Assembly: GCA_030730365.1 (NCBI GenBank)
Contig: JANQVJ010000012.1
Location: 11,416 to 75,415, forward strand
Direction of reading: 5' to 3'
DNA length: 64,000 nt
Source: Verrucomicrobiales bacterium
GTDB lineage: Bacteria > Verrucomicrobiota > Verrucomicrobiia > Verrucomicrobiales > DEV007
Within the stretch, counting starts at the first letter, position 1, and every line of letters starts with the position of its first letter. Of the stretch, positions 4,301-51,328 are shown piece after piece. Position numbers and translations under genes: made by a program. The notes below the pieces were generated by a model. The model had not been told where the DNA came from, did no database searches, and saw only the letters and a program-made list of their open reading frames with translations.

Positions 4301-4600
4301 ATCCTGCGGCGTCAGAGTCGCCAGAACCGCCGAAAGGGGATCGCGCGGGTCCGAAGCGAGGGCGGCGGCGTCTTTCGGATTGGCCGCGGCTTTGGCCAGC
4401 TTTATGAGGATGGAGTCAAAGAACTCTCCCGCCGCCTTGCGCGTGAAGGTCACGGCGATGATGCGCTCGGGCGCGACGGGCAGCCCGCTCTTGCGCTGCA
4501 GGCCCATCAGGGCGATGTAGCGATTCGTCAGTTGCCACGTCTTCCCCGATCCGGCCGAGGCGAGGATCATTTCGTTGGGGATGTTTCCGGTGAGGGGCAT
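1304..4600 (-). CDS. addA: AddA-type UvrD/Rep helicase-nuclease
   Basis: This 1098-residue protein has the order of an AddA/RecB helicase-nuclease. The Walker A motif ASAGSGKT is at residues 14-21, followed by the QLTNRYI segment of UvrD-family enzymes. Later come motif II with LLDEFQDTN, motif III-like FQVGDIKQAIYAWRGGD, motif V VMTVHKSKGLTFD and motif VI YVAMTRA. A C-terminal PD-(D/E)XK nuclease domain shows GTFDRVQIE and the catalytic ILDFKTN. With AddB it would process double-strand ends for RecA-dependent repair. The addB gene is upstream on the same strand but is separated from addA by a toxin-antitoxin pair, which is unusual because addA and addB normally abut. The ATG start places Walker A at the expected distance from the N-terminus. 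Confidence 0.88.
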   Translation of the reverse strand: MPLTGNIPNEMILASAGSGKTWQLTNRYIALMGLQRKSGLPVAPERIIAVTFTRKAAGEFFDSILIKLAKAAANPKDAAALASDPRDPLSAVLATLTPQDFEALLRVFISHMPRLFLGTLDSFFSNILRAFPAEFGLTSDFEVMDEYQTAVAQARVYQSVFERQLGAGHKEDPAQRAFLEAFRLATFGKNEVKIIVRLNEFIEALHDLYLSAPGETLWGNENAIWEDGGKDWFVTEVDFKEEFARLFRALEGLEKVDWKYWEEFREQLPLHRPGSPIKARVEYMIERLLPGWTEICNGSFSVKLNRTVHDLDRACCDPLRRILQRFVGAELSIKLHRTRGIWELLSQYESTYADQVRRQGQLTFQDLQLLLSGHDYGDRASSPILTQSSGDDDRLQIDYRLDARYDHWLLDEFQDTNILQWRVIENLIDEVVQDNSGTRSLFQVGDIKQAIYAWRGGDTRLFTDIAKRYNARETRVHPRNLDVSWRSGIDVIDPVNRVFGCPATLAELGLPQATIAQWQWHDHEVAPTREEVEGCTLLLNPVPPAGEKPAKEDTYALVVGILEEINPVERGIKCAILVQSNKQGTTLIDYIRAHCRIPVVSESDILIASDNPLNRALMSVFQCAAHPGDTFAWEHLRMTPYGAVIDRDGLRVEPFARHVLSALFEGDFETVTRHYIALFETELGSPLDPFTRSRAEEFALAARLFDEKGSRDIDDFLAYISRHKTREPIAGSAVQVMTVHKSKGLTFDAVILPELGGNSLTTARREIGAKEDENREACWVLDLPAKEIVKADPVLGAYAEECEAAAAYESLCKFYVAMTRASHANYLIADPLGKSSTAKNFVKLLELSLEEEPQETDFHGVSALVRYQSRTPRSNRRWYEKPDPAVPANSTQTAAPDAVDPARTRLRPRRRTPSESEIVTANAARIFSPHGGEAREFGNLVHAIFEDIEWADETSLLDLRVKWEDRSTGNPAVLRDALEQVTGSLESVEIRTALSRPGEHATVWREKSFEILLKGEWLSGTFDRVQIERNSAGVPTAATILDFKTNRVSTADEIAASAEKYRPQLETYREVLQRMTGLPTSAIGCSLIFTRSQVLKTF

Positions 4601-4608
4601 GGCGCGGT

Positions 4609-5049
4609 CTATTTCGGGTGGAGAGGGTTGATCACTTCGAGAAAGTCAAACTTCCGGAAATCTGTGTCCGCCGTATAAATTCGCAGCACTCCGTGTTGTC
4701 GCAGGATCGTCGCGAGATGGGCGTCGGGGACGAGGTTTCCCCTGACTATCATCCCGGAGGTCATGCTCAGATAATCGTCGGCAAATTCAGGCTCCTCGGT
4801 GATAACTCTCACTCTGGGAAGGGAAAGCAGATTCTGAATGTTTCCCCATGCTTTGGTTGGACTGAGTGGTTCGGAAAAAATCGAGGGATGAGTAGCAATC
4901 CGCTGATAGGCCATCAAGGTCGGCCAGGTAAGGCAAAGCAAATCGGGATCCGAGGGACGGGTTTCAAGGAATTCAAAAGCAGCGGGGTGGAACGGTGACG
5001 AGGTGTCACTGGCGTAGAGGAGGAGGTTCGCGTCGATGGAATAGCTCAT
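4609..5049 (-). CDS. PIN-domain toxin, VapC family
   Basis: The 146-residue protein starts with SIDANLLLYA, where Asp6 is the first PIN acidic residue. It has NLVPDAHLATIL (Asp109) and YTADTDF (Asp128/Asp130) for the later ones. VapC toxins are Mg-dependent ribonucleases that cut tRNA or rRNA. The stretch WPTLMAYQRIATHP around residues 42-54 matches the PIN subgroup in which the usual second acidic residue is not conserved, so activity cannot be assumed. The start codon overlaps the antitoxin stop by four bases (ATGA), showing translational coupling. The pair sits between addB and addA. Confidence 0.85.
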   Translation of the reverse strand: MSYSIDANLLLYASDTSSPFHPAAFEFLETRPSDPDLLCLTWPTLMAYQRIATHPSIFSEPLSPTKAWGNIQNLLSLPRVRVITEEPEFADDYLSMTSGMIVRGNLVPDAHLATILRQHGVLRIYTADTDFRKFDFLEVINPLHPK

Positions 5050-38002: not shown

Positions 38003-39397
38003 TCAGCGCACCTGCATGTCGTAGTCACTCGCGTCCATTTCGGCTTCCCAGGCTTTTAGTTTCGCTTTGAGGTCAGCGCTGATCCCGGAGTGGTGGTAAT
38101 GGAGATTGACTCGTTCGCCGGGATCGTTAGCGAGGTCAAAGAGAAGGTCCATGGTTCCTCCATCGTCGACGTATTTGTATCGACCGTGGCGGATCGCCTT
38201 CATCTTGCGGTTGGTGCGATCCATGCGCCAGTAGAAGGTGCGGTCGACGACTGGCACTGTCTCCGTGAGATGGGGGATCAGGTCGATGCCGTCGAAGGGC
38301 CTGTCTTCGGGCAGGGTGCCGCCGGCTGCTTTGAGAAAGGTCGCGGTGAGGTCCATGGTGATGCCCGCCTGGGCGGATTTTTTTCCCTTTGGCAGGATGG
38401 TGGGCCAACTCATGAGGCAGGGCACGCGGATGCCGCCTTCCCAGAGGGTGGCTTTGTGGTGAAAAAAGGGCCGGTTGCTCGCCCAGCGTTCCCCGCCGTT
38501 GTCGCTTGAAAAGACGATGAGGGTATTCTCGACGAGCCCGGCTTTTTCGAGCTCGGCGTAGATCATGCCGACACCGTCGTCGACACGCTCAAGCATCGCC
38601 TTGTAGATCTCGCGGCTGCCGGTGAGCATGGACTCTTTGGTGACAACAGGCGTTCCGGGAGCGTCGGGGGCCTGGAAGGGGGCGTGCACGGCGAGGTGCG
38701 GCACATAGAGGAAAAAGGGTTTGCCGGCCGATTTGGCGATGAACTGCGCGGCACGTTCGTTGACGAGATCGGTGAAGTAGCGCCCCTCCATTCTGACCGG
38801 CTCGAGGCCGTCGCGGAGGGCGTAGGTGCCGTCGAAGTAGGTGTGTTTGTAAAAGTCGGCATGGCCGAGGAGCTCGCCGAAATACTCGTCGAAGCCGCGG
38901 TTCACGGGGTTGTAGACGTCTTTGTAGCCGAGGTGCCATTTGCCGAAGGCGCCGGTGGCGTAGTCGAGCTCCTTGAGATAATTCGCGAGGGTCTTCGCCT
39001 TGAGCGGCAGTCCGAGGGCGTGGAAGCCGGGTTCGGGTACCCATTTCCCATCGACGAGGACTTTTTGCTCCACCATGTAGCCGAAGGCAAATTCGATCCC
39101 GAGTCGCTGCTGCCAGCGTCCTGTCATGAATCCGGCCCGGGTCGGGGTGCAGACGGGGGCGTTTGCGTAGAAGTCGGTCAACTGCACGCCTTCGGCGGCG
39201 ATGCGGTCGATGTGGGGGGTGCTGATGTCTTCGGCCCCGGTGCAGCCGAGGTCGCCGTAGCCCATGTCGTCGACGAGAATGAAGATGATATTCGGTGGGC
39301 TGGCGGCGAGGCTGACAGCAGGTCGGGCCAGGGAGAAGAGGCAGGCGAGCACAAGGAGTGCCGACGCCGCAGCGGGGATGGGGACATGGGATTTCAT
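38003..39397 (-). CDS. Secreted sulfatase (arylsulfatase A-type)
   Basis: The 464-residue protein has a signal peptide (to about residue 32) and the sulfatase core: NIIFILVDDMGYGDLGCTG with the metal aspartates, then CTPTRAGFMTGR where Cys83 would be converted to formylglycine. Later are GKWHLGY and FSSDNGGERW. It hydrolyses sulfate esters, probably of sulfated polysaccharides. The start at 39397 is used over TTG at 39433. It is divergent from a second sulfatase at 39652. No formylglycine-generating enzyme is in view. Confidence 0.9.
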   Translation of the reverse strand: MKSHVPIPAAASALLVLACLFSLARPAVSLAASPPNIIFILVDDMGYGDLGCTGAEDISTPHIDRIAAEGVQLTDFYANAPVCTPTRAGFMTGRWQQRLGIEFAFGYMVEQKVLVDGKWVPEPGFHALGLPLKAKTLANYLKELDYATGAFGKWHLGYKDVYNPVNRGFDEYFGELLGHADFYKHTYFDGTYALRDGLEPVRMEGRYFTDLVNERAAQFIAKSAGKPFFLYVPHLAVHAPFQAPDAPGTPVVTKESMLTGSREIYKAMLERVDDGVGMIYAELEKAGLVENTLIVFSSDNGGERWASNRPFFHHKATLWEGGIRVPCLMSWPTILPKGKKSAQAGITMDLTATFLKAAGGTLPEDRPFDGIDLIPHLTETVPVVDRTFYWRMDRTNRKMKAIRHGRYKYVDDGGTMDLLFDLANDPGERVNLHYHHSGISADLKAKLKAWEAEMDASDYDMQVR

Positions 39398-39651
39398 CTC
39401 CGCCAGACTAAGAAGAGAGATGCCGGGGGCCAAGGAAAAAGAACATCAAGCCCGGAAAACGGGGTGGAACTATCCCGGGACGATTCGGCGCTACCGCGGA
39501 TGGATACGGATGGAGATGAGGGAGCCCGCCCCGAATACTCACGATATGGCCGCCCGCGGCAAGGGGCGCCGACAGCCGTATCTGGGTAGCGAAGCTGAAG
39601 CGGAAACACGATCCTTGACCCCTTCCGCTGAGCATGATTCGATGAGGCGCC

Positions 39652-41148
39652 ATGAAGTTCCTCCTTTCCGCCCTCGCTCTCTTCGGCGTTCCCTTCGCCT
39701 TTTCCGCAGAACCGGCCCCGAACATCATCCTCATGATGGGGGACGACCACGGCTGGGAGGAGACGGGTTACAACGGGCATCCCTATTTAAAAACGCCGGT
39801 GCTCGACGAGATGGCGGCGACGGGTCTGCGACTCGATCGATTTTATGCGGCGCATCCGAGTTGTTCGCCGACACGGGCGAGCTTTCTGACTGGGCGGCAC
39901 CCGAACCGCATGGGGACTTTCACCCCCGGGTGGTCCTTTCGCCCTCAAGAGATCACAACGGCGGCGATCCTGGGGACGGCGGGCTATTTCTGCGGACATT
40001 TCGGAAAATGGCATGTCGGCGCGGTCAAGTCCGAGTCACCGGTGAGTCCGGGTGCGATGGGCTTTCACGAGTGGCTCTCGCACGACAACTTTTTCGAAAT
40101 GAACCCGTCCTTTTCCCGCAACGGAGGACCGCCCGAGATTTTCCCGGGGGAGAGCTCGGAGGTGCTCATCGCCGAAACGGTGAAGTTCATCGAGCGCTCG
40201 CGCGAGCTGGGCAAGCCCTTCTTCGGAGTAGTCTGGTTCGGTTCGCCACACGAGCCTTACAGCGGACTGCCCGCCGATCTTGCGCTCTACGACGAACTCC
40301 CCGCGAAGTATCCGGACAAAATGGTAAAGCTCACCTCGAACGAGACCGGAGGCCAGGTTCAGCGTCCCCAGGGCGAAGTCCTGCGCGAGCGCTATGCCGA
40401 GATCACGGCGATGGATCGATCCATCGGGACGCTGCGCCAGTATCTGGCGGACAATGGCCTGCGGGACAATACGCTCGTCTTTTATTGCGGTGATAATGGG
40501 ACTTCGGCCGACGGATCGCTGAGGTCTCCGCATCGTGGCGTGAAAAGCGAAATCTACGAGGGCGGCCTCCTTGTGCCCGGGTTAATCGAGTGGCCCGCCC
40601 GGATCCCGAAGCCGCTCGTGAGCCGACTCCGCGCCTCGACGAGTGACCTGCTCCCGACAGTTTGTGCGATCACGAGGCAGCCGCTCCCCGATCGTCCCCT
40701 CGACGGGCTCGACGTGATGTCGCTGATTGACGGAGGCGTCGAGGAGCGACCGGCTCCGCTCTTTTTCTGGGAATATCCGGTGCATCGCCTGAAATCAATG
40801 AACCTCGAGCCCTACCTCGATCCGGAACTGCAAAAGGGCACGACCCCGCTGGTGAAGATCTCCAACGGTGTCGCGACGCGAAACTTCACCAATTTTCACC
40901 ATCCGCTTCTCACGCCCGAAGACTACAAGGGAGCCCGCGCCATCGTGGAAGGGCGCTATAAACTTGTCGTCCACGACAAAAAAGAGGGCGAGGCGAAAAA
41001 GGAGCTTTTTGACCTGCTCGAAGATCCCGGCGAGACGAGGAATCTGATCAAAGAAAATCGCGAAGTAGCCGAGTCGCTCCAGAAAACAATGCACGAATGG
41101 CAGGGCTCAGTTTTGAAAAGTCTGGGTGGATCTGATTACGTAGACTGA
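39652..41148 (+). CDS. Secreted sulfatase
   Basis: The 498-residue protein has a signal peptide (MKFLLSALALFGVPFAFSAEP) and the sulfatase core NIILMMGDDHGWEETGY, with CSPTRASFLTGR (Cys71 for formylglycine) and GKWHVGAV. The C-terminal region has YCGDNGTSADGS and ARAIVEGRYKLVVHDK, typical for sulfatases acting on glycans. It is a different subfamily from the divergent neighbour (38003-39397), so two substrates are likely. The 254-base gap between them must carry both promoters. Confidence 0.9.
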   Translation: MKFLLSALALFGVPFAFSAEPAPNIILMMGDDHGWEETGYNGHPYLKTPVLDEMAATGLRLDRFYAAHPSCSPTRASFLTGRHPNRMGTFTPGWSFRPQEITTAAILGTAGYFCGHFGKWHVGAVKSESPVSPGAMGFHEWLSHDNFFEMNPSFSRNGGPPEIFPGESSEVLIAETVKFIERSRELGKPFFGVVWFGSPHEPYSGLPADLALYDELPAKYPDKMVKLTSNETGGQVQRPQGEVLRERYAEITAMDRSIGTLRQYLADNGLRDNTLVFYCGDNGTSADGSLRSPHRGVKSEIYEGGLLVPGLIEWPARIPKPLVSRLRASTSDLLPTVCAITRQPLPDRPLDGLDVMSLIDGGVEERPAPLFFWEYPVHRLKSMNLEPYLDPELQKGTTPLVKISNGVATRNFTNFHHPLLTPEDYKGARAIVEGRYKLVVHDKKEGEAKKELFDLLEDPGETRNLIKENREVAESLQKTMHEWQGSVLKSLGGSDYVD

Positions 41149-41387: not shown

Positions 41388-42143
41388 ATGTCTGAACCGC
41401 TTTCAGGAAAAGTTGCCTTTATCTCCGGCGGGTCCCGGGGGATCGGTCGTGCCACCGCGCTGAAGCTCGCTGCAGCGGGCTGCGATGTCGCGATTCTCTA
41501 TTATAATAGCCACGAGGAGTCCGAAGCGGTCTGCGAACTCATCCGCCGGATGGGGCGAAAAGCCCTCGCGGTGCAGGCCGATGTGGCCAATCCCGGGAGC
41601 GTCGAAGAGGCCTTCGGGGAATTCAAAAAGGAATTCGACCGCGTCGATTTTGTGATCAGCAACGCCGCTCTCGGAGTCCTGAAACCCGCGCTGGAGATGG
41701 GGCTGAAGCATTTCCGCCGCTGCATGGAGACCAATGCGCTGGCCCTCAATACGCTCGCCCAGAACGCGGTCCCGATGATGAGCGCCGGCGGATCCATCAT
41801 TGGCCTGACGAGTCTCGGCTCCGAGCGGGCCATCCCGAACTACACCTTCATCGGTGCCTCCAAGGCCGCCCTCGAGGCGCTCGCCCGCGGTCTCGCCCAG
41901 GAACTCGGACCGCAGGGGATCCGGGTCAATTGTGTCAGTGCCGGAGTCGTCGACACGGACGCCCTGAAGCATTTCCCCAATCGCGAGCATCTCCTCGCGG
42001 AATACGAAACCCGCACCCCGCTGGGGCCGACGCTCTCGCCCGAGCAGGTCGCCGACGCGATCTACCTGCTCTGCCTCCCCGAGGCGGCGATGATCACAGG
42101 ACACACCCTTTTTGTGGACGGAGGCTACGCCATTTCAGGATGA
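41388..42143 (+). CDS. SDR enoyl-ACP reductase, FabL-like
   Basis: The 251-residue short-chain dehydrogenase has GGSRGIGRA for NADP(H) binding. The segments TSLGSERAIPNYTFIGASKAA and DTDALKHFPNREHLL closely match the FabL (enoyl-ACP reductase III) pattern rather than FabG. It would reduce the trans-2-enoyl chain on the carrier protein in the last step of a chain-extension cycle. It is the first gene of an operon and overlaps the next gene by four bases (ATGA at 42140-42143). The ATG at 41388 is used, as residues before it are not conserved. Confidence 0.8.
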   Translation: MSEPLSGKVAFISGGSRGIGRATALKLAAAGCDVAILYYNSHEESEAVCELIRRMGRKALAVQADVANPGSVEEAFGEFKKEFDRVDFVISNAALGVLKPALEMGLKHFRRCMETNALALNTLAQNAVPMMSAGGSIIGLTSLGSERAIPNYTFIGASKAALEALARGLAQELGPQGIRVNCVSAGVVDTDALKHFPNREHLLAEYETRTPLGPTLSPEQVADAIYLLCLPEAAMITGHTLFVDGGYAISG

Positions 42144-42904
42144 GTGAGCCCCTGACCAACCCCGACGCCGGTCTCGCCGGACGCAATGCCCTCGTCACCG
42201 GCGGCAGCCGCGGGATCGGACGCGCCATCGTCGAACGCCTCGCCGGGGCGGGCATGGACGTGACTTTTACCTATCTCGGCAACGAAGCGGCGGCAAACGA
42301 AGTCGTCTCGGCCAATCCCGGCCTGAAGATTACGGCGGTGCGGGTTGATGCCCGCGAGAGCGAGGCGGTCAACCAGTGTCTCGAGGCCCTCATCGGGCGG
42401 GTTGGTACAATCGACGTCCTCGTGAACAACGCCGGCGTCATTCGGGATAATCTCCTGCCCATGCTCGAGGACGACGACCTCCGCGAGGTCTTTTCGACCA
42501 ACATCGAGGGCGTCTTCCACTTTTGCCGGGCGGCGGTCCCTTTTATGATGTCGAAGCGCTACGGCCGCATCATCAATATCAGTTCCGTCTCGGCCGACAA
42601 AGGCGGACGGGGCCAGACGAACTACGCCGCGAGCAAGGGCGCGATCAATTCCTTTACCAAAGCCCTCGCCGTCGAGGTGGGGCGTCGCGGGATCCGCGTC
42701 AACGCTGTCGCGCCGGGCGTGATCGAGACGGAAATGTCCAAAGAGGTGCGTGATTTGGCTGGTGAGGAAATCATTTCCAATATCGTTTTGAAGCGTTATG
42801 GTCTGCCCTCCGAAATTGCGAACGCCGTCTGGTTTCTCAGTTCCGACCTGGCGAACTACATTACCGGGCAGGTCCTGAGCGTGGACGGTGGTTTTAAAAT
42901 GTAA
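42140..42904 (+). CDS. SDR ketoacyl-ACP reductase, FabG-like
   Basis: The 254-residue SDR shows GGSRGIGRAIV, NNAGVIRDNLL, the catalytic segments NISSVSADKGGRGQTNYAASKGA (Ser-Tyr-Lys), and VNAVAPGVIETEM, the FabG signature. It would reduce 3-oxoacyl-ACP to 3-hydroxyacyl-ACP with NADPH. The start overlaps the FabL-like stop (ATGA). Five bases separate it from the ACP gene. With FabL-like, dehydratase and ketosynthases it completes one extension cycle, and the pathway is separate from housekeeping FAS. Confidence 0.85.
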   Translation: MSEPLTNPDAGLAGRNALVTGGSRGIGRAIVERLAGAGMDVTFTYLGNEAAANEVVSANPGLKITAVRVDARESEAVNQCLEALIGRVGTIDVLVNNAGVIRDNLLPMLEDDDLREVFSTNIEGVFHFCRAAVPFMMSKRYGRIINISSVSADKGGRGQTNYAASKGAINSFTKALAVEVGRRGIRVNAVAPGVIETEMSKEVRDLAGEEIISNIVLKRYGLPSEIANAVWFLSSDLANYITGQVLSVDGGFKM

Positions 42905-42909
42905 CAGAC

Positions 42910-43329
42910 ATGAGTATTCAAGACATCAGCAAGGATGACGTCATGGCCATCTACCCGAAGGTGGCCGAAATCATCGCCGACGCCCTCGGCTGCGACGAAG
43001 AAGAAGTGCAGCCCGACTCTTCCCTGATCAACGACCTCGACGCCGAGTCGATCGACTTTCTCGACATCGTTTTCCGTCTCGAAAGGGAGTTCAAAGTGAA
43101 AATCCCCCGCGGCAAAGCCATCGAAGAGGCCCGTGGTGAACTGAGCGAGGAGGAATTCGAGCAAGGCGGTATCGTCACCGACGCCGGGGTTGCGAAACTG
43201 CGCACCTTTCTTAGTGAAGTGCCCGCCGACCGCATCAAGACGCCGCTCAAGGCAGCCGAGATCCCCAAGCTCTTCACGACCGAGACCTTCTGTAAGATGG
43301 TCATTCGTGAGCAGCAGGCCGGTGCCTGA
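42910..43329 (+). CDS. Long acyl carrier protein, AcpXL-like
   Basis: The 139-residue carrier has the phosphopantetheine serine at Ser47 in NDLDAESIDFLDIVFRLE. The FLDIVF run followed by FKVKIP is the hallmark of rhizobial AcpXL, which carries the very long chain for lipid A. Housekeeping AcpP has a DSLDTVE-type motif instead. This protein is longer, with a C-terminal extension of about 40 residues (ADRIKTPLKAAEIPKLF and so on). The role is inferred: it would carry a growing special acyl chain to the acyltransferase in the same operon. The assignment as ACP is firm, the AcpXL role is inference. Confidence 0.82.
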   Translation: MSIQDISKDDVMAIYPKVAEIIADALGCDEEEVQPDSSLINDLDAESIDFLDIVFRLEREFKVKIPRGKAIEEARGELSEEEFEQGGIVTDAGVAKLRTFLSEVPADRIKTPLKAAEIPKLFTTETFCKMVIREQQAGA

Positions 43330-43397
43330 GAGGCCTGCTCTCGCCTAAGGCGGGGCGCTAAAGAGCTCTCCTTGATGTTTGACTATTTCCCACGCTG

Positions 43398-44228
43398 ATG
43401 ACCGATCATTTCCGCGCCTTCTCCTTTGTGGACAGGATCCACGGGGATGAGACGGGGAAGCGTGTCACCGGTTCCTATCATCTCCCGTCGGGGGTGGATT
43501 CCTTCCCGCTCTCCCTCGTGGCCGAGTCCATTGGCCAGCTCGCGGCTTGGTCGTCGATGGCGGTGGTGGACTTTGCGGTGCGACCTGTCGCCGGCATCGC
43601 CGGTCGGGTCGAGTTCCCCGGCACGGTCGCGCCCGGAGATACTCTCGAACTCGAGGCCACCCTCGTGAAGGCCGACGATGAGGCGGTCGGCTACGACGGC
43701 GTCGCCCGCGTCAACGGGAAAGAGGTCGTTCGTCTCCACGACTGTCTCGGACCGATGGTGCCGCTCGTTGATTTCGACGATCCCGAGGCGATGCGGGAAC
43801 GTTACCGCCTCCTCACCACGAACGGGGCGACACCAGATGCCTTTGGCGGAGTGCCCTGTTTTGTGCCGGAAAAAACCGGAGGCACCTCCGGGGAGACTTC
43901 CGAGGGCAGCTTCTCCATTCCCAAGGCTGCCCCGTTTTTCGGAGACCATTTTCCCCGCCGTCCCGTCTTTCCGGGCACGCTCCTGATGAACCTGAACCTC
44001 GGCTTTGCCATTGATCTTGCGGTCGAGCGGGTCGGGGAGGGGACGCAGTGGGCTCCGCAGGAAATGCGGGACGTGAAGATCCGCTCCTTTATGGCGCCCG
44101 GCGAGGTCCTCGACCTCAAAGCGACGATCGAGGAACATGACGGTGACCTCGTTCGTGTTATCGTGGAGACTCGCAAAGGAAAACGTTTAACCAGCAGCGC
44201 CCGTGTCCTGCTCTCCCGCATCCCGTGA
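43398..44228 (+). CDS. Double-hotdog 3-hydroxyacyl-ACP dehydratase, FabZ-like
   Basis: The 276-residue protein has two hotdog units. The C-terminal one has HFPRRPVFPGTLLMNL, with His184 matching the FabZ catalytic histidine, but the usual glutamate 14 residues later is Asn198. The N-terminal unit has HLPSGVDSFPLSLVAESIGQ (His28 and Glu43). In FabZ the active site joins His of one chain and Glu of the other, so this fused dimer may have one composite site of His184 and Glu43. It would dehydrate 3-hydroxyacyl-ACP in the operon's cycle. A 68-base gap from the ACP gene is the longest in the operon. Confidence 0.75.
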   Translation: MTDHFRAFSFVDRIHGDETGKRVTGSYHLPSGVDSFPLSLVAESIGQLAAWSSMAVVDFAVRPVAGIAGRVEFPGTVAPGDTLELEATLVKADDEAVGYDGVARVNGKEVVRLHDCLGPMVPLVDFDDPEAMRERYRLLTTNGATPDAFGGVPCFVPEKTGGTSGETSEGSFSIPKAAPFFGDHFPRRPVFPGTLLMNLNLGFAIDLAVERVGEGTQWAPQEMRDVKIRSFMAPGEVLDLKATIEEHDGDLVRVIVETRKGKRLTSSARVLLSRIP

Positions 44229-45529
44229 TGGCCATGATCGAAAAACGCAGAATCGCCGTGACCGGAATCGGCATGGTCACCCCGGTCGGGAACACCGCCG
44301 CCGACACCTGGGCGGGACTCCTCGAAGGAAAAAGCGGAGCCGCCCCGACGCAGAGTTTTGATGCGAGCGGCTTTTCGACGACTTTCAGCGCCGAGGTAAA
44401 AGGCTTCGACGCCGAGAGCGCGGTGCCCAATCGCAAGCTGCTGAAGTATGCCTCGCGTTCCCATCGTTTCGCTCTCGCCGCCGCCGCCGAGGCGCTTGCC
44501 GACGCGGGGATTGCTCCGACCGAAGCTGATTCCCACCGTTGGGGACTCGCCGTCGGCGCGGGGATGCTCTCGGTCGGTTACGAGGATCTCACCGTCGTCC
44601 ACGACTACGCCGCACCCGATGGCGAGTTCAATGCCGACGGGCTCATCGATCCCGACTTCCCAGGGAATCCGGTTAACTTTTGCCGCTGGCAGTCCAATGC
44701 GGGGCAGGGGCTGCTGACGAAGCAGTTCGGTATCCGCGGGTATGCGACCTCAGTTCACACCGCCTGCGCCTCGGGCGGTCAGGCCATCGGGACCGCGCTG
44801 AAGGTGATGCGTCGCGGCCAGTGCGATTACATGCTCGCGGGCGGCTTTGATTCCATGATCAATCCGACCGGCATCTCGGGATTTTGTCTCCTCGGCGCCC
44901 TCTCGACCGACAATGACAACCCCACCGGAGCAAGCCGTCCCTTTGATGCAACGCGGAACGGATTTGTTCTCGGCGAAGGCGCCGGATTCCTCGTTCTCGA
45001 AGACTGGGACAAAGCCACCGCGCGCGGCGCGATGATCTATGCCGAGCTCGCCGGAGACGGGAATTCGCTCAGTTGCTACCGTATCACGGATTCTCCGCCC
45101 GACGGGAACGGGCCGATCCAGGCGATCGAGCAGGCCCTCGGCGATGCCGGGATCACCGCGGCCGAAATCGATTACGTGAACGCTCACGGCACCTCGACGC
45201 AGATGAACGACCGCAGCGAGTGCGCCGCGCTCAAGGCGGTCTTCGCCGGTCGGATCGACGAGGTCCGGGTGAGCTCGACGAAAAGCTCGATGGGACATCT
45301 CATCGCCGCCGCCGGTGCGGTAGAGGCGGCGGTCTGCTGTCTTGCGATTCGTCACAGTCTCGCGCCCATGAACGCGAACTACGAAAATCCCGATCCCGAC
45401 TGTGACGTGAATCTCATCACCGGTGCGCCGCAGCCGATGCGCATCCGCGCGGCCCTTTCGAACTCGCTCGGATTCGGCGGCTCGAACAGTTCACTCGTTT
45501 TCCGCAATCCCGAGGAGGTCCGGTCATGA
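44228..45529 (+). CDS. Ketosynthase, FabF-like (KS1)
   Basis: The 433-residue thiolase-fold enzyme has the full Cys-His-His triad: Cys180 in HTACASGG, His320 in NAHGTSTQMND, and His357 in SSTKSSMGHLIAAAG, with Lys352. It catalyses decarboxylative condensation of malonyl-ACP with an acyl chain. The start is placed at ATG 44228, overlapping the stop of the dehydratase gene; an in-frame GTG lies one codon earlier. The next gene, a second ketosynthase, overlaps its stop (ATGA). The pair parallels fabF1XL and fabF2XL. Confidence 0.85.
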   Translation: MAMIEKRRIAVTGIGMVTPVGNTAADTWAGLLEGKSGAAPTQSFDASGFSTTFSAEVKGFDAESAVPNRKLLKYASRSHRFALAAAAEALADAGIAPTEADSHRWGLAVGAGMLSVGYEDLTVVHDYAAPDGEFNADGLIDPDFPGNPVNFCRWQSNAGQGLLTKQFGIRGYATSVHTACASGGQAIGTALKVMRRGQCDYMLAGGFDSMINPTGISGFCLLGALSTDNDNPTGASRPFDATRNGFVLGEGAGFLVLEDWDKATARGAMIYAELAGDGNSLSCYRITDSPPDGNGPIQAIEQALGDAGITAAEIDYVNAHGTSTQMNDRSECAALKAVFAGRIDEVRVSSTKSSMGHLIAAAGAVEAAVCCLAIRHSLAPMNANYENPDPDCDVNLITGAPQPMRIRAALSNSLGFGGSNSSLVFRNPEEVRS

Positions 45530-46818
45530 AACACGCAGGCGAAAAAATCGTATTTACCGGCAGCGGCATTGTCTGCGGTGCCGGCACTTCGGTGGCGGAA
45601 GTGTGGGATCGTCTCGAAAAAGGCGTGTCCGCGGTGGCGCCATTCACCCAGTTCGACGGAACCAACTGGCCGGTCAAAGTCGCGGCCGAAGTCCTGCAGG
45701 ACAATCGTTTCCTCGTTTCGGACCGCAAGCTGCACAAGACGATCGCCCGCACCGACATGTTCGGGATCTACGCGACCGAGAGCGCGATCGAAGACTCAGG
45801 CCTGCCCGCCTATCGAGAAGGACTCGGCGAAGCGGAGACCAACACCTTCAACGACCGAACCGGACTGATCATCGGTAGCGGAGGTGGGAACTACCGCAGC
45901 AACTATGATTTTCTCCCGCTCATGACCGCGGCCAAGGCGGCGCCCGAGGGCGGGCTACCCTACTTCGGACGCGAGCTCGGCAATCAGGTCACGCCGATGT
46001 GGCTGCTCAAAAATCTCCCTAACAATGTCCTCTGTCACGTCGGCATTCGCGGGCAGTACAAGGGCACCAACGCCTGCATCACGAACCAGTGCTCGAGCGG
46101 AGTCCTCGCTGTGGCCGAGGCCGCTTCCGCGATCTGGAACAACGAAGCCGACCGCATCGCCGCCGCCGGGCATGATGCTCCCTTCGAGCCCGAGATGGTC
46201 TTTTATTACCACCGGCTCGGACTGATGTCGGGTGAGGCGCCGCGGCCTTTTGATGCGGAGCGTAACGGCACCGTCTTTGGCGAAGGTTCCGCTGCTGTCG
46301 TCCTCGAGCGCGAGGCCGATGCAAAAGCGCGCGGGGCGAAAGTGCTCGGTGAATTCCTCGGCTTCGGTTGCTGCAGCGAGGCGACCGGGATCCTCGATCT
46401 CGAAGACGACGGCGACGGGGTGAAACGCGCCATCGAATCCGCTCTCGCCGACGCGGGCATTACTAAGGAGCAGGTCGGTCTCATCTGCGCGCACGGCAAC
46501 GGGAATGAGGCTTCCGACCGGACCGAGTCCATGGGCATTCGCAGCGTCTTCGGTGAGGACATCCCGCCGGTAACCGCCTTCAAATGGGCCTACGGGCACC
46601 TCATTGCCGCATCGGGCATCGCCGATCTTGTCATGATCCTCGAAGTGCTGAAACGCGGCGTCATCCCCGGCATCGCGACGCTCGGCGAAGTCGATCCGCT
46701 CATCGCGCCCTTTCCCATCTCGCGCGAGGCGGCCGCGCCGCGCAGTGATATCGCCCTGCTCATCTGTCGTGGATTCGGCGGGATGAACGTCGTCCTCCTC
46801 GTCCGCGGAGCCTCTTGA
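45526..46818 (+). CDS. Ketosynthase, divergent FabF-like (KS2)
   Basis: The 430-residue thiolase-fold protein keeps Cys189 (ACITNQCSSGVLAV), His323 (CAHGNGNEASD) and His358 with Lys353 (FKWAYGHLIAASG), so the triad is intact. The surroundings differ from KS1: the usual TACASG is NQCSSG and HGTST is HGNGN. It may form a heterodimer with KS1, as a chain-length-controlling or second elongating ketosynthase, or work alone. Its start overlaps KS1 (ATGA), and the next start lies one base after its stop. Confidence 0.78.
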   Translation: MKHAGEKIVFTGSGIVCGAGTSVAEVWDRLEKGVSAVAPFTQFDGTNWPVKVAAEVLQDNRFLVSDRKLHKTIARTDMFGIYATESAIEDSGLPAYREGLGEAETNTFNDRTGLIIGSGGGNYRSNYDFLPLMTAAKAAPEGGLPYFGRELGNQVTPMWLLKNLPNNVLCHVGIRGQYKGTNACITNQCSSGVLAVAEAASAIWNNEADRIAAAGHDAPFEPEMVFYYHRLGLMSGEAPRPFDAERNGTVFGEGSAAVVLEREADAKARGAKVLGEFLGFGCCSEATGILDLEDDGDGVKRAIESALADAGITKEQVGLICAHGNGNEASDRTESMGIRSVFGEDIPPVTAFKWAYGHLIAASGIADLVMILEVLKRGVIPGIATLGEVDPLIAPFPISREAAAPRSDIALLICRGFGGMNVVLLVRGAS

Positions 46819-46819
46819 A

Positions 46820-48022
46820 ATGCGCAACGGAATCGACACCGTCGAGATTTCCCGCATCGAGAAGCTCCTTGGCGATCTCGACGAAGTCGCCCTGCGTGAA
46901 TTCTTTTCCGAAGAGGAGTTGAATGATGCAGGACGCGGGAGCGGTCCGGCCCGGGCGCAGAAGCTCGCGGCCCGTTTCGCGGCGAAGGAGGCCTGCTGCA
47001 AACTTTTCCCGAAAGAGATTTGCCTGGGGGCGATCGAGCCCTACGATTTCTCCGTCTCACGCGACGGATACGGCCAGCCCGGCATCGTTCCGAGTGAGCG
47101 AGCCAGGGCGGTGATGGATCGTCATCGCGTCAGTCGTATTTCCCTCTCCATGACCCACACCGACACCAGTGCCACCGCGATCGCCTCGACCGAGCTCGGA
47201 GAAGTGATCGTGCCCTGGTACGGGAAATTTATCTACCACCTCCTCCCGCTGAGGCGCCGTGTCGTGCTGGAGAATCTCCGCCGCGTCTTTGGCGAGACCC
47301 TGACAGAGACTCAGATCACGGGCATCGCGCAGGGGTTCTACGCACACCTCGTGAAGTTCCTTGGCGAATTTCTCACGCTGCCTTTTCTGTCGGCGGCGAA
47401 GAAGGAAAAGCTTATCCGGATCGAGGGCGGCGAGCATCTCCTCGCGGCACTCGGGCAGGGCAGAGGCGTCCTGCTGCTGACCGGTCACTTCGGCAACTGG
47501 GAAGTCTCGACTGTCGCCGGCATCGCGCAGTTCCGTGAGTATCACGGGCGCTTCCATTTCATCCGGCGTCCGCTCAAGCCGAAGTGGTTCAACGACTTCG
47601 TGATGCGGCGCTTCCGCCAGGCGGGTTTCGGGACTCTCGACAAGGCCGGCTCACTCGACGAGATTCTCGAACTGCTCGAGCAGAATAACATCGTCGTTTC
47701 GATCTTCGATCAGTTCACGGTGAAGAAGTACGGGATCCCCTCGGAGTTCTTTGGTCATCCCGCCCATACTTTTAAAAGCCTCGCCGTCCTCGCCCAGTTC
47801 ACCGGTGCTCCTGTGATCCCCTCGTCGAGCTGGCGCGAGCCCGACGGCACCCACGTGCTACTCTTCGAAGCTCCTGTCGGGATCGTGACCGAGGGGCGCA
47901 CCCGCGACATTATCTCGGTGAACACGAAGCGTTTCAACGAAGTGCTTGAGCGCATCATCCTGCGCCATCCCGAGCAGTGGATTTGGATGCACAAACGCTG
48001 GAAGAAGGTTCGCGAGGATTGA
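46820..48022 (+). CDS. AcpS phosphopantetheinyl transferase fused to an LpxL-type acyltransferase
   Basis: The 400-residue protein is a fusion. Residues 1 to about 125 match holo-ACP synthase: GIDTVEISRIEKLL (Asp6), RFAAKEACCKLF (Glu57) and ISLSMTHTDTSATAIA (His113). From about residue 130 it matches LpxL/HtrB lysophospholipid or lipid A acyltransferases: LPLRRRVVLENLRRVFGETL, then LLTGHFGNWEVS with the HX4E motif (His223 and Glu228). The first half would load phosphopantetheine on the operon's ACP, and the second would transfer the finished acyl chain to a membrane lipid. I know of no standard protein with this pairing. It ends the operon. Confidence 0.82.
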   Translation: MRNGIDTVEISRIEKLLGDLDEVALREFFSEEELNDAGRGSGPARAQKLAARFAAKEACCKLFPKEICLGAIEPYDFSVSRDGYGQPGIVPSERARAVMDRHRVSRISLSMTHTDTSATAIASTELGEVIVPWYGKFIYHLLPLRRRVVLENLRRVFGETLTETQITGIAQGFYAHLVKFLGEFLTLPFLSAAKKEKLIRIEGGEHLLAALGQGRGVLLLTGHFGNWEVSTVAGIAQFREYHGRFHFIRRPLKPKWFNDFVMRRFRQAGFGTLDKAGSLDEILELLEQNNIVVSIFDQFTVKKYGIPSEFFGHPAHTFKSLAVLAQFTGAPVIPSSSWREPDGTHVLLFEAPVGIVTEGRTRDIISVNTKRFNEVLERIILRHPEQWIWMHKRWKKVRED

Positions 48023-48028
48023 TGGGAC

Positions 48029-48730
48029 TCACTTCCCCTCGTGCCGCTCCACCACTTCGGTGGCCTGGCGGTTTTTCACGATCTGGTGCGACTCGAGCGT
48101 GCCCTGCCACGAAGTCAGCGGGTAGACGATGCAGTCCCGACCCAGAATAGAGCCGGGGCTGAGGACGCTGTTGCAGCCGATCTCGGTGCGGTCGCCGATG
48201 ATCGCACCGAATTTCCGCAGACCGGTCTCGAGCATCGCGCCAGCGCCGTCACGCACTGCAACAGGACGTCGATCAAGCCTGACATTCGAACAAATGACAC
48301 CGGCGCCGAGGTGGGCTTTGTAACCGAGGATGGAGTCCCCCACATAATTGAAATGGGGTACTTCGCAGCGGTTGAAAAGGAGGCAGTTCTTGAACTCGCT
48401 TGAGTTCCCGAGGACGCAGTCACTCCCCGTGATGACATTTTCCCTGACATAAGCTCCGCTGCGCACGACCGTGCCGGGTCCGATCCAGGCGGGGCCTTTG
48501 ATGACGGCATTCGCCTCGACGACGGCTCCGGGTGCGATGTAAACGCGCTCCCCAACGATGGCGCGAGGGTCGATCGAACCTTGTTGGGTCGTGGACTCAA
48601 CCCTGTTGAGTCGGTCCTCCAGGTAGTCGCCGATCCGTGAAAGTGCCGTCCAGACGGGTTCATCCGCCACAAAGAGCGCATCATGCTCCGTCTCGGCCAA
48701 GTCGAACAGGTCTGATGGGAAAAACGTCAT
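48029..48730 (-). CDS. Left-handed beta-helix (hexapeptide repeat) protein, GlmU C-terminal-like
   Basis: The 233-residue protein consists largely of hexapeptide repeats (for example IAPGAVVEANAVIKGPAWIGPGTVVRSGAYVRENVITG) and forms a left-handed beta helix. The pattern resembles the acetyltransferase half of GlmU-type UDP-GlcNAc enzymes. There is no nucleotidyltransferase motif in the N-terminal 45 residues. It converges on the lipid operon, ending 7 bases from the fusion gene. Substrate is not known. Confidence 0.7.
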   Translation of the reverse strand: MTFFPSDLFDLAETEHDALFVADEPVWTALSRIGDYLEDRLNRVESTTQQGSIDPRAIVGERVYIAPGAVVEANAVIKGPAWIGPGTVVRSGAYVRENVITGSDCVLGNSSEFKNCLLFNRCEVPHFNYVGDSILGYKAHLGAGVICSNVRLDRRPVAVRDGAGAMLETGLRKFGAIIGDRTEIGCNSVLSPGSILGRDCIVYPLTSWQGTLESHQIVKNRQATEVVERHEGK

Positions 48731-48814
48731 TTTTTATTCGTGTCCCATGTCCTATGATTGACTTCGTTTCACGCCGTCTATCTCCGCTGCGCTTCGATTC
48801 ATGTCCCGCGCGGA

Positions 48815-49381
48815 CTACACGGTCATGACGTCCTTTTCCTTCGCTTCGAAGTGGGCGTCGATGGATTTGACGCTTTTGTCGGTGAGGGTCTGGACTTCTT
48901 TCTCGAAGTCCCGGAAATCGTCTTCAGTGATGGTGCTGGCTTTGAGGGCGGCCTTGAGTTTATCCATCGCGTCTTTCCTCGCGCCGCGCACGCGCACGCG
49001 GCCCTGCTCGGCCATGTCCTTGATCACTTTGACGAGGTCACGGCGGCGTTCTTCGGAAAGTTCGGGGATGGGGAGGCGGATGATGCGACCGTCGCTCGAG
49101 GGATTGATCCCGAGTTTCGACTCGCGCAGGGCGCGCTCGATATCCTGCATCGTCGAGGGGTCGTGCGGCTGCACCGTGAGGAGACGGGGCTCGGGAGCGG
49201 AGACGAGGGCGATCTGTTTCAACTGCATCGAGCTGCCGTAGGCCTGCACGTGTACGTTGATGTTGTCGAGCAGCGCGGGGCTGGCCTTGCCGGTACGGAT
49301 GGTGGCCATTTCGTGGGAGACAAAGTCGGACGCCTTGTCCATCGCATCTTCAGTTTCCAGGAGAAAAGTGTCAGGATCCAT
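48815..49381 (-). CDS. frr: Ribosome recycling factor
   Basis: The 188-residue protein has the family's core MATIRTGKASPALLDNINVHVQAYGSSMQLKQIALVSAPEPRLLTVQPHD and a long three-helix bundle ending with the KEVQTLTDKSVKSIDAHFEAKEKDVMTV tail. With EF-G it splits post-termination ribosomes. It is downstream of pyrH on the same strand, the standard bacterial neighbourhood (pyrH-frr), though rpsB and tsf are absent from this window. Confidence 0.94.
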   Translation of the reverse strand: MDPDTFLLETEDAMDKASDFVSHEMATIRTGKASPALLDNINVHVQAYGSSMQLKQIALVSAPEPRLLTVQPHDPSTMQDIERALRESKLGINPSSDGRIIRLPIPELSEERRRDLVKVIKDMAEQGRVRVRGARKDAMDKLKAALKASTITEDDFRDFEKEVQTLTDKSVKSIDAHFEAKEKDVMTV

Positions 49382-49446
49382 GAGGTCTTTTGTTCTTGAT
49401 TGATTGAGTCATTCTAGAGTCGCATCGGGCGAAATCAATCAGCGGC

Positions 49447-50196
<750 letters not shown>

Positions 50197-50225
50197 CTAA
50201 TTGAAATGTTTTTCAAAGGGCAATC

Positions 50226-51194
50226 TCACCACGCTCCGAGAATCGTGCCGAGGGGAATGTTCGTCCCGCGGAGGAACTCGCTAGCGCTGAGACGTTTGCG
50301 CCCCTCAAGCTGGAGACCGCCCTCGAGGATGAGGGCGCCACTGCCGCAATTGACGATAAGCCGGGTCCCGCTCTCGAGCACCGTCCCGGGAGCGCTCGAG
50401 TCGCCCTCGATGATGCTGGCAGGAGGTTGAAGCTTCAGCTTCCGTCTTTCTTCGCCGAGGGTGACGAATGTTGTTGTTCCGGGCCAGGGATCGTAGGCGC
50501 GGATGAGCCGCTCGAGGACCGTCGCATCCATCTTCCAGTCGATTTCTCCGTCGTCGCGGAGAAGCTTGCCCGAGTAGATGACGCTGTCCTCATTCTGAGC
50601 TTCCGCGGCGGGGAGACCGTCGCGAAAAAGAGGGAGTCCCCGCTCCAAGAGCCGGGGGCCGAGGATGGCGAGTCTGTCGTGCAGGCTGCCGCCGGTGTCG
50701 TCAGGGTGGATAGGGATAGACTCTTTCAGAATCATGTCTCCGGCGTCGAGTTTCGGGACGATGTGCATTAGCGTGATCCCCGATTCCCCGTCGCCTTCAC
50801 GGATGGCGGCCTGGATGGGTGATGCGCCGCGGTGTCGGGGGAGGAGTGATGCATGCAGATTGATGCAGGCGAGGGTAGGCGTCGAAATGAGCGCCTTCGG
50901 GAGAATCTGCCCGTAGGCCATGACCACGGCGAGGTCAGGTCTAAAAGCGGCGAATTCAGCGAGTGCAGCCTCATTTCCCCGCAGGAATTCCGGCTGCCGC
51001 ACCGGAATTCCATGAGCCGCGGCGAGGAGTTTAATCTCAGGGGCGGTTAGCACTTGTTTGCGCCCGACCGGCTTGTCAGGCTGTGTGTAGACCGCGACGA
51101 TTTCGTGTTCGTCCGGGGCGGTCGACTGGTGCTCGATGAGCCATTGCAGAGTGGGGAGGGCGATCACCCCGGTGCCCATGAATACGATACGCAT
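50226..51194 (-). CDS. fmt: Methionyl-tRNA formyltransferase
   Basis: The 322-residue protein shows MRIVFMGTGVIALPTLQWLI, NLHASLLPRHRGASPIQAAIREGD (active-site Asn, His and Ser region) and ALISTPTLACINLHA. The C-terminal domain starts near AYDPWPGTTTFV. It formylates Met-tRNAi using 10-formyltetrahydrofolate. The gene sits upstream of pyrH on the same strand with a 62-base gap. Start ATG 51194. Confidence 0.92.
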   Translation of the reverse strand: MRIVFMGTGVIALPTLQWLIEHQSTAPDEHEIVAVYTQPDKPVGRKQVLTAPEIKLLAAAHGIPVRQPEFLRGNEAALAEFAAFRPDLAVVMAYGQILPKALISTPTLACINLHASLLPRHRGASPIQAAIREGDGESGITLMHIVPKLDAGDMILKESIPIHPDDTGGSLHDRLAILGPRLLERGLPLFRDGLPAAEAQNEDSVIYSGKLLRDDGEIDWKMDATVLERLIRAYDPWPGTTTFVTLGEERRKLKLQPPASIIEGDSSAPGTVLESGTRLIVNCGSGALILEGGLQLEGRKRLSASEFLRGTNIPLGTILGAW

Positions 51195-51328
51195 ACTTTG
51201 CCTACTCAAGGGCCGGAGAGAGTAAGGTCAAAAGAAATATGCCACCACGGGATGGCTTGCAATCCGCCCGGCTCGGGTTAAAAAAGGGGGATGGATTTCC
51301 CTCTCCCTTCGCCCTCCAGTTTTGAACC

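Follow-up and report, generated by a model that had tools for sequence, protein, structure and literature searches.

What acyl chain does a bacterium build with a complete set of elongation enzymes that ends in a transferase of the LpxL type, and to which acceptor is that chain delivered? This question is raised by seven genes at positions 41388-48022, on the forward strand, of a 64,000-nucleotide stretch of Verrucomicrobiales bacterium DNA (contig JANQVJ010000012.1, positions 11,416 to 75,415; hereafter the window). In order, they encode a FabL-type enoyl-ACP (acyl carrier protein) reductase (ER), a FabG-type reductase, an ACP, a double-hotdog dehydratase (DH), two proteins of the ketosynthase (KS) family, KS1 and KS2, and a fusion of AcpS with an LpxL-type acyltransferase. 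We consider it somewhat probable that this operon is a self-contained line for the assembly and delivery of an acyl chain, which would most likely go to lipid A and replace the ordinary LpxL chain there. According to this proposal, the AcpS domain would equip the operon's own ACP with its phosphopantetheine arm; malonyl units would be added by KS1, with KS2 probably as its partner for chain length or priming; and FabG, the double-hotdog dehydratase and the FabL-type reductase would finish each cycle. The LpxL domain would then take the finished chain, presumably distinct from the housekeeping acyl chains, off this ACP and attach it to an acceptor in the membrane, most likely lipid A.

A first-pass annotation of this DNA had described seven closely packed genes on the same strand, and this was borne out. 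The ER and FabG genes overlap by 4 bases, as do those of KS1 and KS2, and gaps of 5 bases and 1 base separate FabG from ACP and KS2 from the fusion gene, respectively; the exception, and the sole sizeable gap of the operon, is the 68-base spacing between the ACP and DH genes. Profile searches against NCBIfam and Pfam gave concordant domain assignments for all seven genes, and these domain calls support the other central point of that annotation, namely, an elongation cycle with its own carrier that is combined with carrier activation and LpxL-type delivery. The operon is no accident of assembly: the fusion is intact in relatives down to 57% identity, and the gene order is repeated in other phyla.

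The distribution of the operon was analyzed at several levels. First, 74 genomes of the family were searched, and the figures refer to the matches listed, best first. The whole fusion is present in at least 24 of the 33 genomes of the window's genus (two of them with a stop inside the aligned stretch), partially in two more, and as a whole in a second genus, g215, in all three of its genomes; among the matches listed, it was found in 2 of the 18 genera of the family. Twenty of the 26 other family loci were inspected. Eight have the seven full-length genes in the same order, and one more differs by an ER truncated at a contig end; in six, the remaining six genes are accompanied by a reduced ER or none; and five are partial, two because of contig ends and three that comprise just the later genes there. 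Among the matches listed, best first, for 387 genomes sampled across the phylum, there was no second whole fusion, and the inspection of 20 other LpxL-type loci, one of which is in the window's own genome, did not reveal a sister operon.

Next, a broad scan was made of genome contigs with an alignment of KS2, and 80 loci were kept of 121 relatives. The seven-gene complement is present in 53 of these 80 loci and AcpS and LpxL lie in one open reading frame in 73, both of which are lower bounds because several loci stop at a contig end; an ER orthologue is likewise found at 53 of the 80 loci. Verrucomicrobiota is named in 43 of the locus titles. The other 37 loci are from Burkholderiales and other Betaproteobacteria, NC10/Methylomirabilota, Gammaproteobacteria and one unplaced proteobacterium, and the full seven genes are present in 31 of them. 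The named isolates Zwartia panacis, Zwartia vadi and Jezberella montanilacus (L245, L247 and L260) carry the seven genes alone between other genes. The first-pass annotation had considered that the closest homologues might all lie in housekeeping fatty acid synthesis (FAS) or aryl-polyene loci; instead, KS2 relatives were found in the same operon in other phyla, in a comparison to which no aryl-polyene protein was directly submitted. The residue counts given below are based on the 20 family loci and the 80 loci of the scan; these sets (L061-L080 and L187-L266) overlap in origin, and the counts therefore refer to loci, not to genomes. Identity thresholds for orthologues, which were chosen for this analysis, ranged from 33 to 55%.

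The fusion encoded by the last gene provides a clear search handle for this operon. It matches PF01648 at residues 4-90 and PF03279 at residues 135-396 (137.6 bits); the latter match begins at profile position 42, and AcpS occupies the place of the missing N-terminal part. The Asp and Glu residues of the motifs GID.VE. and F.AKEA constitute the metal site of AcpS-type phosphopantetheinyl transferases. These residues, Asp6 and Glu57, are present in 96 of 99 loci (the site is not covered in the other three), which identifies the domain as AcpS-type; its score exceeds the cut-off of TIGR00556 (53.8 versus 45.35 bits) and lies under that of the acpS model TIGR00516 (44.3 versus 59.8). LpxL/LpxM acyltransferases depend on an H-X4-E motif. 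In the LpxL domain, His223 is conserved in 98 of 99 loci (one not covered) and Glu228 in 97 (an Arg in L188; one not covered), so that PF03279 is present together with H-X4-E, as expected for an LpxL/LpxM-type enzyme, with scores under the cut-off of every NCBIfam LpxL model listed. The AlphaFold model of the fusion (pLDDT 85.1) matches PatA, LpxM and AcpS structures, with mycobacterial PatA on top and LpxM at ranks 12 and 14. The fusion suggests a physical coupling between carrier activation and chain delivery. The idea that it is the sole phosphopantetheinyl transferase of the genome was dropped, because an Sfp-sized one is also encoded there (C64).

The catalytic residues of the reductases and of the carrier are fully conserved wherever they are covered. 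The nearest solved structure to ER is 3oic, named an enoyl-ACP reductase (E 1.4e-58), and Tyr152 and Lys159 are present in all 59 loci covering the site (of 63 orthologous loci); by its Y-X6-K motif and similarity, it is of the FabL type, though its score is slightly below the cut-off of that model. The FabG protein scores 264 bits with the 3oxo_ACP_reduc model (cut-off 297.75) and exceeds the cut-off of subfamily NF009466, and its Tyr162 and Lys166 are conserved in 77 of 77 orthologous loci, as is Ser47 of the ACP in 78 of 78. At E <= 1e-40, the ER orthologues in the family are limited to the two operon-bearing genera (19 genomes); a 20th match, in G451, shows 37% identity. ER is in pieces in G415, G394 and G413, differently in each, and none is present upstream of FabG in G388, G393 and G414.

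For DH, an AlphaFold model built with 15 sequences (pLDDT 88.6) predicts a double hotdog, which matches double-hotdog thioesterases and dehydratases. The conserved His is confined to the C-terminal half (His184; 89 of 90 loci, one not covered) and the conserved Glu to the N-terminal half (Glu43; 86 of 90, three not covered and one X). Because FabZ-type sites are built from two hotdog chains, this arrangement suggests that DH has a single composite site formed by His184 and Glu43.

The first-pass annotation had counted two ketosynthases, which holds for KS1 and probably not for KS2. KS1 scores 435 bits with the FabF model (cut-off 493.75) and retains the residues required for condensation, with Cys181 in 95 of the 95 covering loci (of 97) and both His residues and the Lys in 97 of 97. 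In KS2, His323, Lys353 and His358 are conserved in 99 of 99 loci. Its Cys189 is a Cys in 42 of 43 loci titled Verrucomicrobiota (Ile in the remaining one), whereas the loci not titled so have Ser, Thr or Ala in 36 of 37 cases and Cys in one; the related KSb of Streptomyces has Ala at this position. The replacement of Cys189 in most loci outside Verrucomicrobiota, together with the Ala of KSb, argues that KS2 is a partner subunit and not a second condensing enzyme. It is probably the non-condensing partner of KS1, either chain-length-factor-like, as in pairs of KS and chain-length factor, or a malonyl decarboxylase.

Since every enzyme class of the operon belongs to the cycle of type II FAS, the seven genes might be a spare copy of housekeeping fatty acid synthesis. 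In favor of this, no housekeeping ACP could be pinpointed for certain: the genome's second ACP match is weak (36 bits), and the 16 kb around it showed no E. coli-like AcpP, FabD, FabG or FabH. However, the genome has another FabF (50.8% identity to that of E. coli) and a separate enoyl reductase, FabV (370 bits), the operon's ACP is of a distinct 139-aa type, and the operon contains neither FabD nor FabH. In addition, the LpxL fusion is kept across phyla and is found, among the matches listed, in only 2 of 18 genera of the family. The FabI model NF005717 was negative in this genome, but none of 14 control genomes passes it either. That the operon is itself the housekeeping system was judged unlikely given the other FabF, FabV and its patchy distribution, and we regard a spare copy as very improbable. 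A KS domain is also present in a 4026-aa reading frame of the genome (L109), which is probably a large polyketide synthase (PKS) or similar megasynthase.

Evidence on the acceptor comes from another gene. At least 14 of the 17 other genera of the family have a full-length gene of ~660 aa (cut by a contig end in one) that encodes a fusion of LpxL with a heptosyltransferase (GT9), and the two proteins tested, P0008 and that of G412, contain both PF03279 and PF01075. The corresponding gene of the window genome (C67) encodes the heptosyltransferase half alone. The neighboring gene clusters are alike at the full gene (G412, G417, G392 and G454) and at the half gene (G416, G388, G411 and G405), and the gene directly upstream was recognized by eye, from its sequence, as secG. 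We inspected 23 half-gene loci in 22 genomes, three of which (the window genome, G416 and G400) contain a run of 100 Ns. In the window genome and G416, this run lies inside secG, before the stop codon, and the missing LpxL half is therefore not hidden there.

Among the genomes of the window's genus in which this gene is readable, GT9 stands alone in 19 of 20 operon-bearing genomes, and the full gene is present in two of the five without a detected fusion. A table of the 41 genomes in the GT9 tree gives 19 half genes and 4 full genes with the operon versus 3 and 15 without it (p = 3e-5). Eight genomes of the genus were left out for having no usable GT9 gene: G389, G390, G399, G404, G409 and G413, which bear the operon, and G387 (which has an operon-type ER) and G403, without a detected fusion. 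G401 counts as operon-bearing because of a partial fusion and G408 because of one split over two contigs; g202 (whose gene is shorter), g203 (matches of 29-32%) and g206 (none of full length among those listed) are outside the table. In the GT9 tree, G405, which has the operon and the half gene, is placed beside G412, which has no operon and the full gene (99/95), and G392, with the operon and the full gene, is just outside the main half-gene clade (89/96). These positions imply that the LpxL half was lost at least two times. Each loss falls where most descendants carry the operon, and the simplest reading would be that this lipid A step passed to the LpxL of the operon. The first-pass annotation had left the acceptor between lipid A and another molecule; the in-place loss of the LpxL half points to lipid A and is new, if indirect, support for an acceptor that we still infer.

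Several observations weigh against this reading. Within the genus, the association is modest (Fisher p = 0.09), and the p value of the 41-genome table ignores relatedness and is biased, because the outgroups were picked for the full gene. The full LpxL-GT9 gene coexists with the operon in G392 and in each of the three g215 genomes, so replacement is not obligatory where the operon is present. Three GT9-only genomes have no detected fusion: G395 carries an operon-type ER, and its operon may be unassembled; in G397, which is placed beside an operon-bearing genome, there is an LpxL-type reading frame of 434 aa elsewhere; and G407 is a plain exception. Another LpxL of ~345 aa, present in the window genome (C24) and many relatives, could serve lipid A. 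Outside the family, 20 operon-bearing genomes have one to five PF03279 matches each, and in 18 of them there are matches besides the operon's own; in favor of the reading, the operon's own is the only one found in G461 and G478, both possibly incomplete. LpxC was found in all 44 operon-bearing genomes tested, as the reading requires, which is weak evidence for it because LpxC is, to our knowledge, near universal in such bacteria. The routine fatty-acid table of two operon-bearing Zwartia strains lists nothing longer than C18, by a method that could miss a minor or very long chain (PMC10535154). Finally, ER is dispensable in the genomes with fragments of it or none; where it has decayed, another enzyme may carry out the final reduction, or this step may be skipped.

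The same assembly line might load a different acceptor through its LpxL domain, for example, an aminolipid, a glycolipid or a small molecule whose release involves the condensation- and hydrolase-like proteins. This would fit the absence of the usual N-terminal part from the PF03279 match, the fact that PF03279-fold enzymes are not all lipid A enzymes, as the ranking of PatA above LpxM illustrates, and the additional PF03279 matches in most operon-bearing genomes elsewhere. In 19 of 50 loci of at least 11 kb (L206-L266), moreover, genes for hydrolase-like lipoproteins and/or condensation-like proteins (assigned by eye) precede ER, and these could serve another acceptor; two of the four condensation-like proteins tested pass the Pfam cut-off, and the upstream stretch of L223 also contains a PEMT-type methyltransferase. 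However, no such genes were seen at the window or in the Zwartia and Jezberella loci, which places them outside the core, and repeated in-place loss of the LpxL half is hard to explain with an unrelated acceptor. We therefore regard delivery to another acceptor as rather unlikely and retain delivery to lipid A as the preferred reading.

The coordinates of the genes and the other stretches discussed are compiled in Table 1. Two sulfatase-like genes, assigned by eye, are located upstream of the operon. Downstream, frr, pyrH and fmt (by eye) and a sugar-nucleotide-transferase-like gene are present on the opposite strand; these genes flank the operon in many relatives but not in all, which indicates that the operon or its flanks have been rearranged.

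Table 1. Positions of the operon genes (window coordinates) and of related or neighboring features (coordinates of the locus or window indicated).
Feature	Position	Strand	Evidence
FabL-type enoyl-ACP reductase (short-chain dehydrogenase/reductase, SDR; Y-X6-K: Tyr152, Lys159)	41388..42143	+	NCBIfam FabL 321.9 bits, cut-off 328
FabG-type 3-oxoacyl-ACP reductase (Y-X3-K: Tyr162, Lys166)	42140..42904	+	NCBIfam 3oxo_ACP_reduc
Dedicated ACP, 139 aa, ~60-residue conserved tail, phosphopantetheine Ser47	42910..43329	+	PF00550
Double-hotdog 3-hydroxyacyl-ACP dehydratase, 276 aa	43398..44228	+	FabA-like domain in C half; AlphaFold model
KS1, condensing ketosynthase (Cys181, His321, Lys353, His358)	44225 (GTG) or 44228 (ATG)..45529	+	FabF model
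KS2, divergent KS (Cys189, His323, Lys353, His358)	45526..46818	+	FabF model 238 bits
AcpS (~1-125) + LpxL/HtrB-type acyltransferase (~133-396, H223-X4-E228) fusion, P0007	46820..48022	+	PF01648 + PF03279
ER remnants in three genus members	L065 7115-7279; L074 6090-6344; L070 6088-6579
Full LpxL-GT9 gene, P0008	L100 7206-9194	-
GT9-only gene of the window genome	L143 (G000:C67) 3919-4971
Streptomyces cluster stretches	L183 8974-13756; L184 7968-11500
Upstream condensation-/hydrolase-like genes	L206 1222-3593; L223 1660-4634; L216 789-2177		by eye
Sulfatase-like gene	window 38003-39433	-	by eye
Sulfatase-like gene	window 39652-41148	+	by eye
frr, pyrH, fmt and sugar-nucleotide-transferase-like gene	window 48029-51209	-	frr, pyrH, fmt by eye
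KS domain in 4026-aa reading frame	L109 (G000:C5) 64952-65701

From which enzyme lineage was the operon built? The first-pass annotation had likened it to the rhizobial acpXL cluster, and two parts of this likeness are well founded: the FLDIVF motif is common to the operon ACP and AcpXL, and the gene order resembles that of the Sinorhizobium meliloti cluster (L103, public record), which is ACP, dehydratase, KS, KS, zinc dehydrogenase, LpxL. A common origin is another matter. The ACP scores under the cut-offs of all 11 NCBIfam models listed, including NF005079, which we take to be the AcpXL model (54.3 bits, cut-off 83), and is thus outside the AcpXL family as defined there; its second-best solved structure, 2kw2, is a specialized ACP, presumably from Rhodopseudomonas. 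Pairwise, it shows 45% identity to Sinorhizobium AcpXL over 74 residues (64 bits) and 39-40% to Streptomyces ACPs over 115-125 residues (83-86 bits), with the tail in common; ~39 aligned columns of this tail are missing from Sinorhizobium AcpXL, and E. coli AcpP scores 46 bits. The two halves of DH match separate genes of Streptomyces, DH1 the N-terminal half (E 2e-12) and DH2 the C-terminal half (E 3e-14), and the LpxL domain is 26% identical to SmLpxXL.

KS1 scores 307 bits with Streptomyces KSa, 284 with E. coli FabF and 230 with SmFabF1XL. In a maximum-likelihood tree of 36 KS proteins, a set from which characterized type II PKS and aryl-polyene KSs are absent, KS1 groups with KSa (92/82), for which the support is moderate, and KS2 with KSb (96/94, starred), while FabF1XL and FabF2XL form groups of their own. 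For KS2, the pairwise scores are highest with NodE (164 bits), two plasmid KSs (158 and 155) and the genome's own FabF (141), followed by KSb (136), SmFabF1XL (112) and SmFabF2XL (42). KS2 thus appears diverged from everything outside its own operon family, and its placement beside KSb rests on the tree, not on pairwise scores; that it is pairwise nearer to NodE and other KSs than to KSb is a point against the lineage proposed here. By both the tree and the scores, FabF1XL and FabF2XL are not the orthologues of the KS pair. The KS tree and most pairwise scores led us to reject descent from the acpXL cluster, and the kinship that the first-pass annotation had implied gives way to one with Streptomyces, where the KS pair groups, in the tree, with that of a cluster that the ACP tail and both DH halves also match. 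The likeness to acpXL therefore appears to be mainly one of function and layout, not of descent: the operon may work like acpXL-lpxXL and be built from another enzyme lineage.

The nearness of KS1, the ACP and the DH halves to Streptomyces type II PKS-like genes rather than to acpXL genes, to which the tree adds KS2, could also indicate a line that makes a polyene or pigment, in the manner of aryl-polyene or highly reducing type II PKS systems, with an unsaturated product anchored in the outer membrane. The loss of ER in some members of the genus would agree with such a product, yet an ER orthologue is present at most of the scanned loci. In aryl-polyene loci, the KSs are accompanied by genes for an exporter, an ammonia lyase, an AMP ligase and a GT2-acyltransferase; around the operon in the window, inspection by eye, with no profile search, showed no exporter, ammonia lyase, AMP ligase or GT2-LpxL. 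We consider a polyene line improbable.

No paper describing the operon was found in the open-access literature, the part of the literature that was covered. Dedicated acyl lines that end in an LpxL-type transferase are known as a kind; this one differs in the enzyme lineage from which it is built and in its AcpS-LpxL fusion. Beyond the preferred assignment, we put forward more tentatively, as a possibility that falls a little short of probable, that the operon is a widespread unnamed envelope system of Verrucomicrobiota, Betaproteobacteria, NC10 and some Gammaproteobacteria, type II PKS-like, in which one protein both activates (AcpS) and unloads (LpxL) the carrier, and that it replaced an ordinary secondary chain of lipid A in some hosts, as a second invention independent of the rhizobial AcpXL-LpxXL. 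If so, special lipid A acyl chains evolved at least two times, from different enzyme families, and the second route spread over several phyla, cultured freshwater bacteria included. The proposal gives a specific prediction on the outer membrane of operon-bearing Verrucomicrobiota, Zwartia and Jezberella.

Several known systems are similar to this operon in part. The rhizobial acpXL-fabZXL-fabF2XL-fabF1XL-adh2XL-lpxXL cluster also combines a dedicated ACP and a dehydratase with a reductase, two KSs of which one has no Cys at the active site, and an LpxL-type transferase, which in the operon is encoded by the last gene (PF03279), at the cluster end. In the published clusters, the order in Agrobacterium is as in Sinorhizobium, and the Bradyrhizobium cluster is without the dehydrogenase (PMC11901934, PMC5613085). 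Unlike in rhizobia, the KS pair of the operon lies elsewhere in the tree and in reversed order (FabF2XL has Glu at the Cys site), the enoyl reductase is an SDR enzyme instead of a zinc dehydrogenase, FabG is within the operon, the dehydratase is a double hotdog, the ACP is longer, and the transferase is an AcpS-LpxL fusion instead of a stand-alone protein. The LpxL/HtrB enzymes and the family's LpxL-GT9 fusion (P0008) share the PF03279 domain, whereas the operon's domain is without the N-terminal part, joined to AcpS and encoded inside an acyl-building operon.

The type II PKS-like plasmid clusters of Streptomyces (NZ_CP108007, L183; NZ_CP108465, L184) share the ACP tail and have a KSa-KSb pair beside which the tree places KS1-KS2; a pair of dehydratase genes in L183 matches the two DH halves, and in L184, acpS adjoins the ACP gene. 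In contrast to the operon, they also contain FabD, a third KS and a KS III-type gene, their dehydratases are separate, and neither a FabL-type reductase nor LpxL is annotated in the stretches seen, although an NADP-dependent oxidoreductase is near in L183. Highly reducing type II PKS and the cispentacin type II PKS-like enzymes likewise use a KS with a partner subunit on a dedicated ACP, and no lipid acyltransferase is described for them in the relevant passages of PMC10698177; the window KSs score 221 and 171 bits with the AmcF model, below its cut-off of 325. The operon is at most a candidate member of the highly reducing type II PKS: a KS pair, a ketoreductase, a dehydratase and an ACP are present and group with the Streptomyces cluster, and an ER is there as well, in a comparison in which the tree holds no characterized member of that class.

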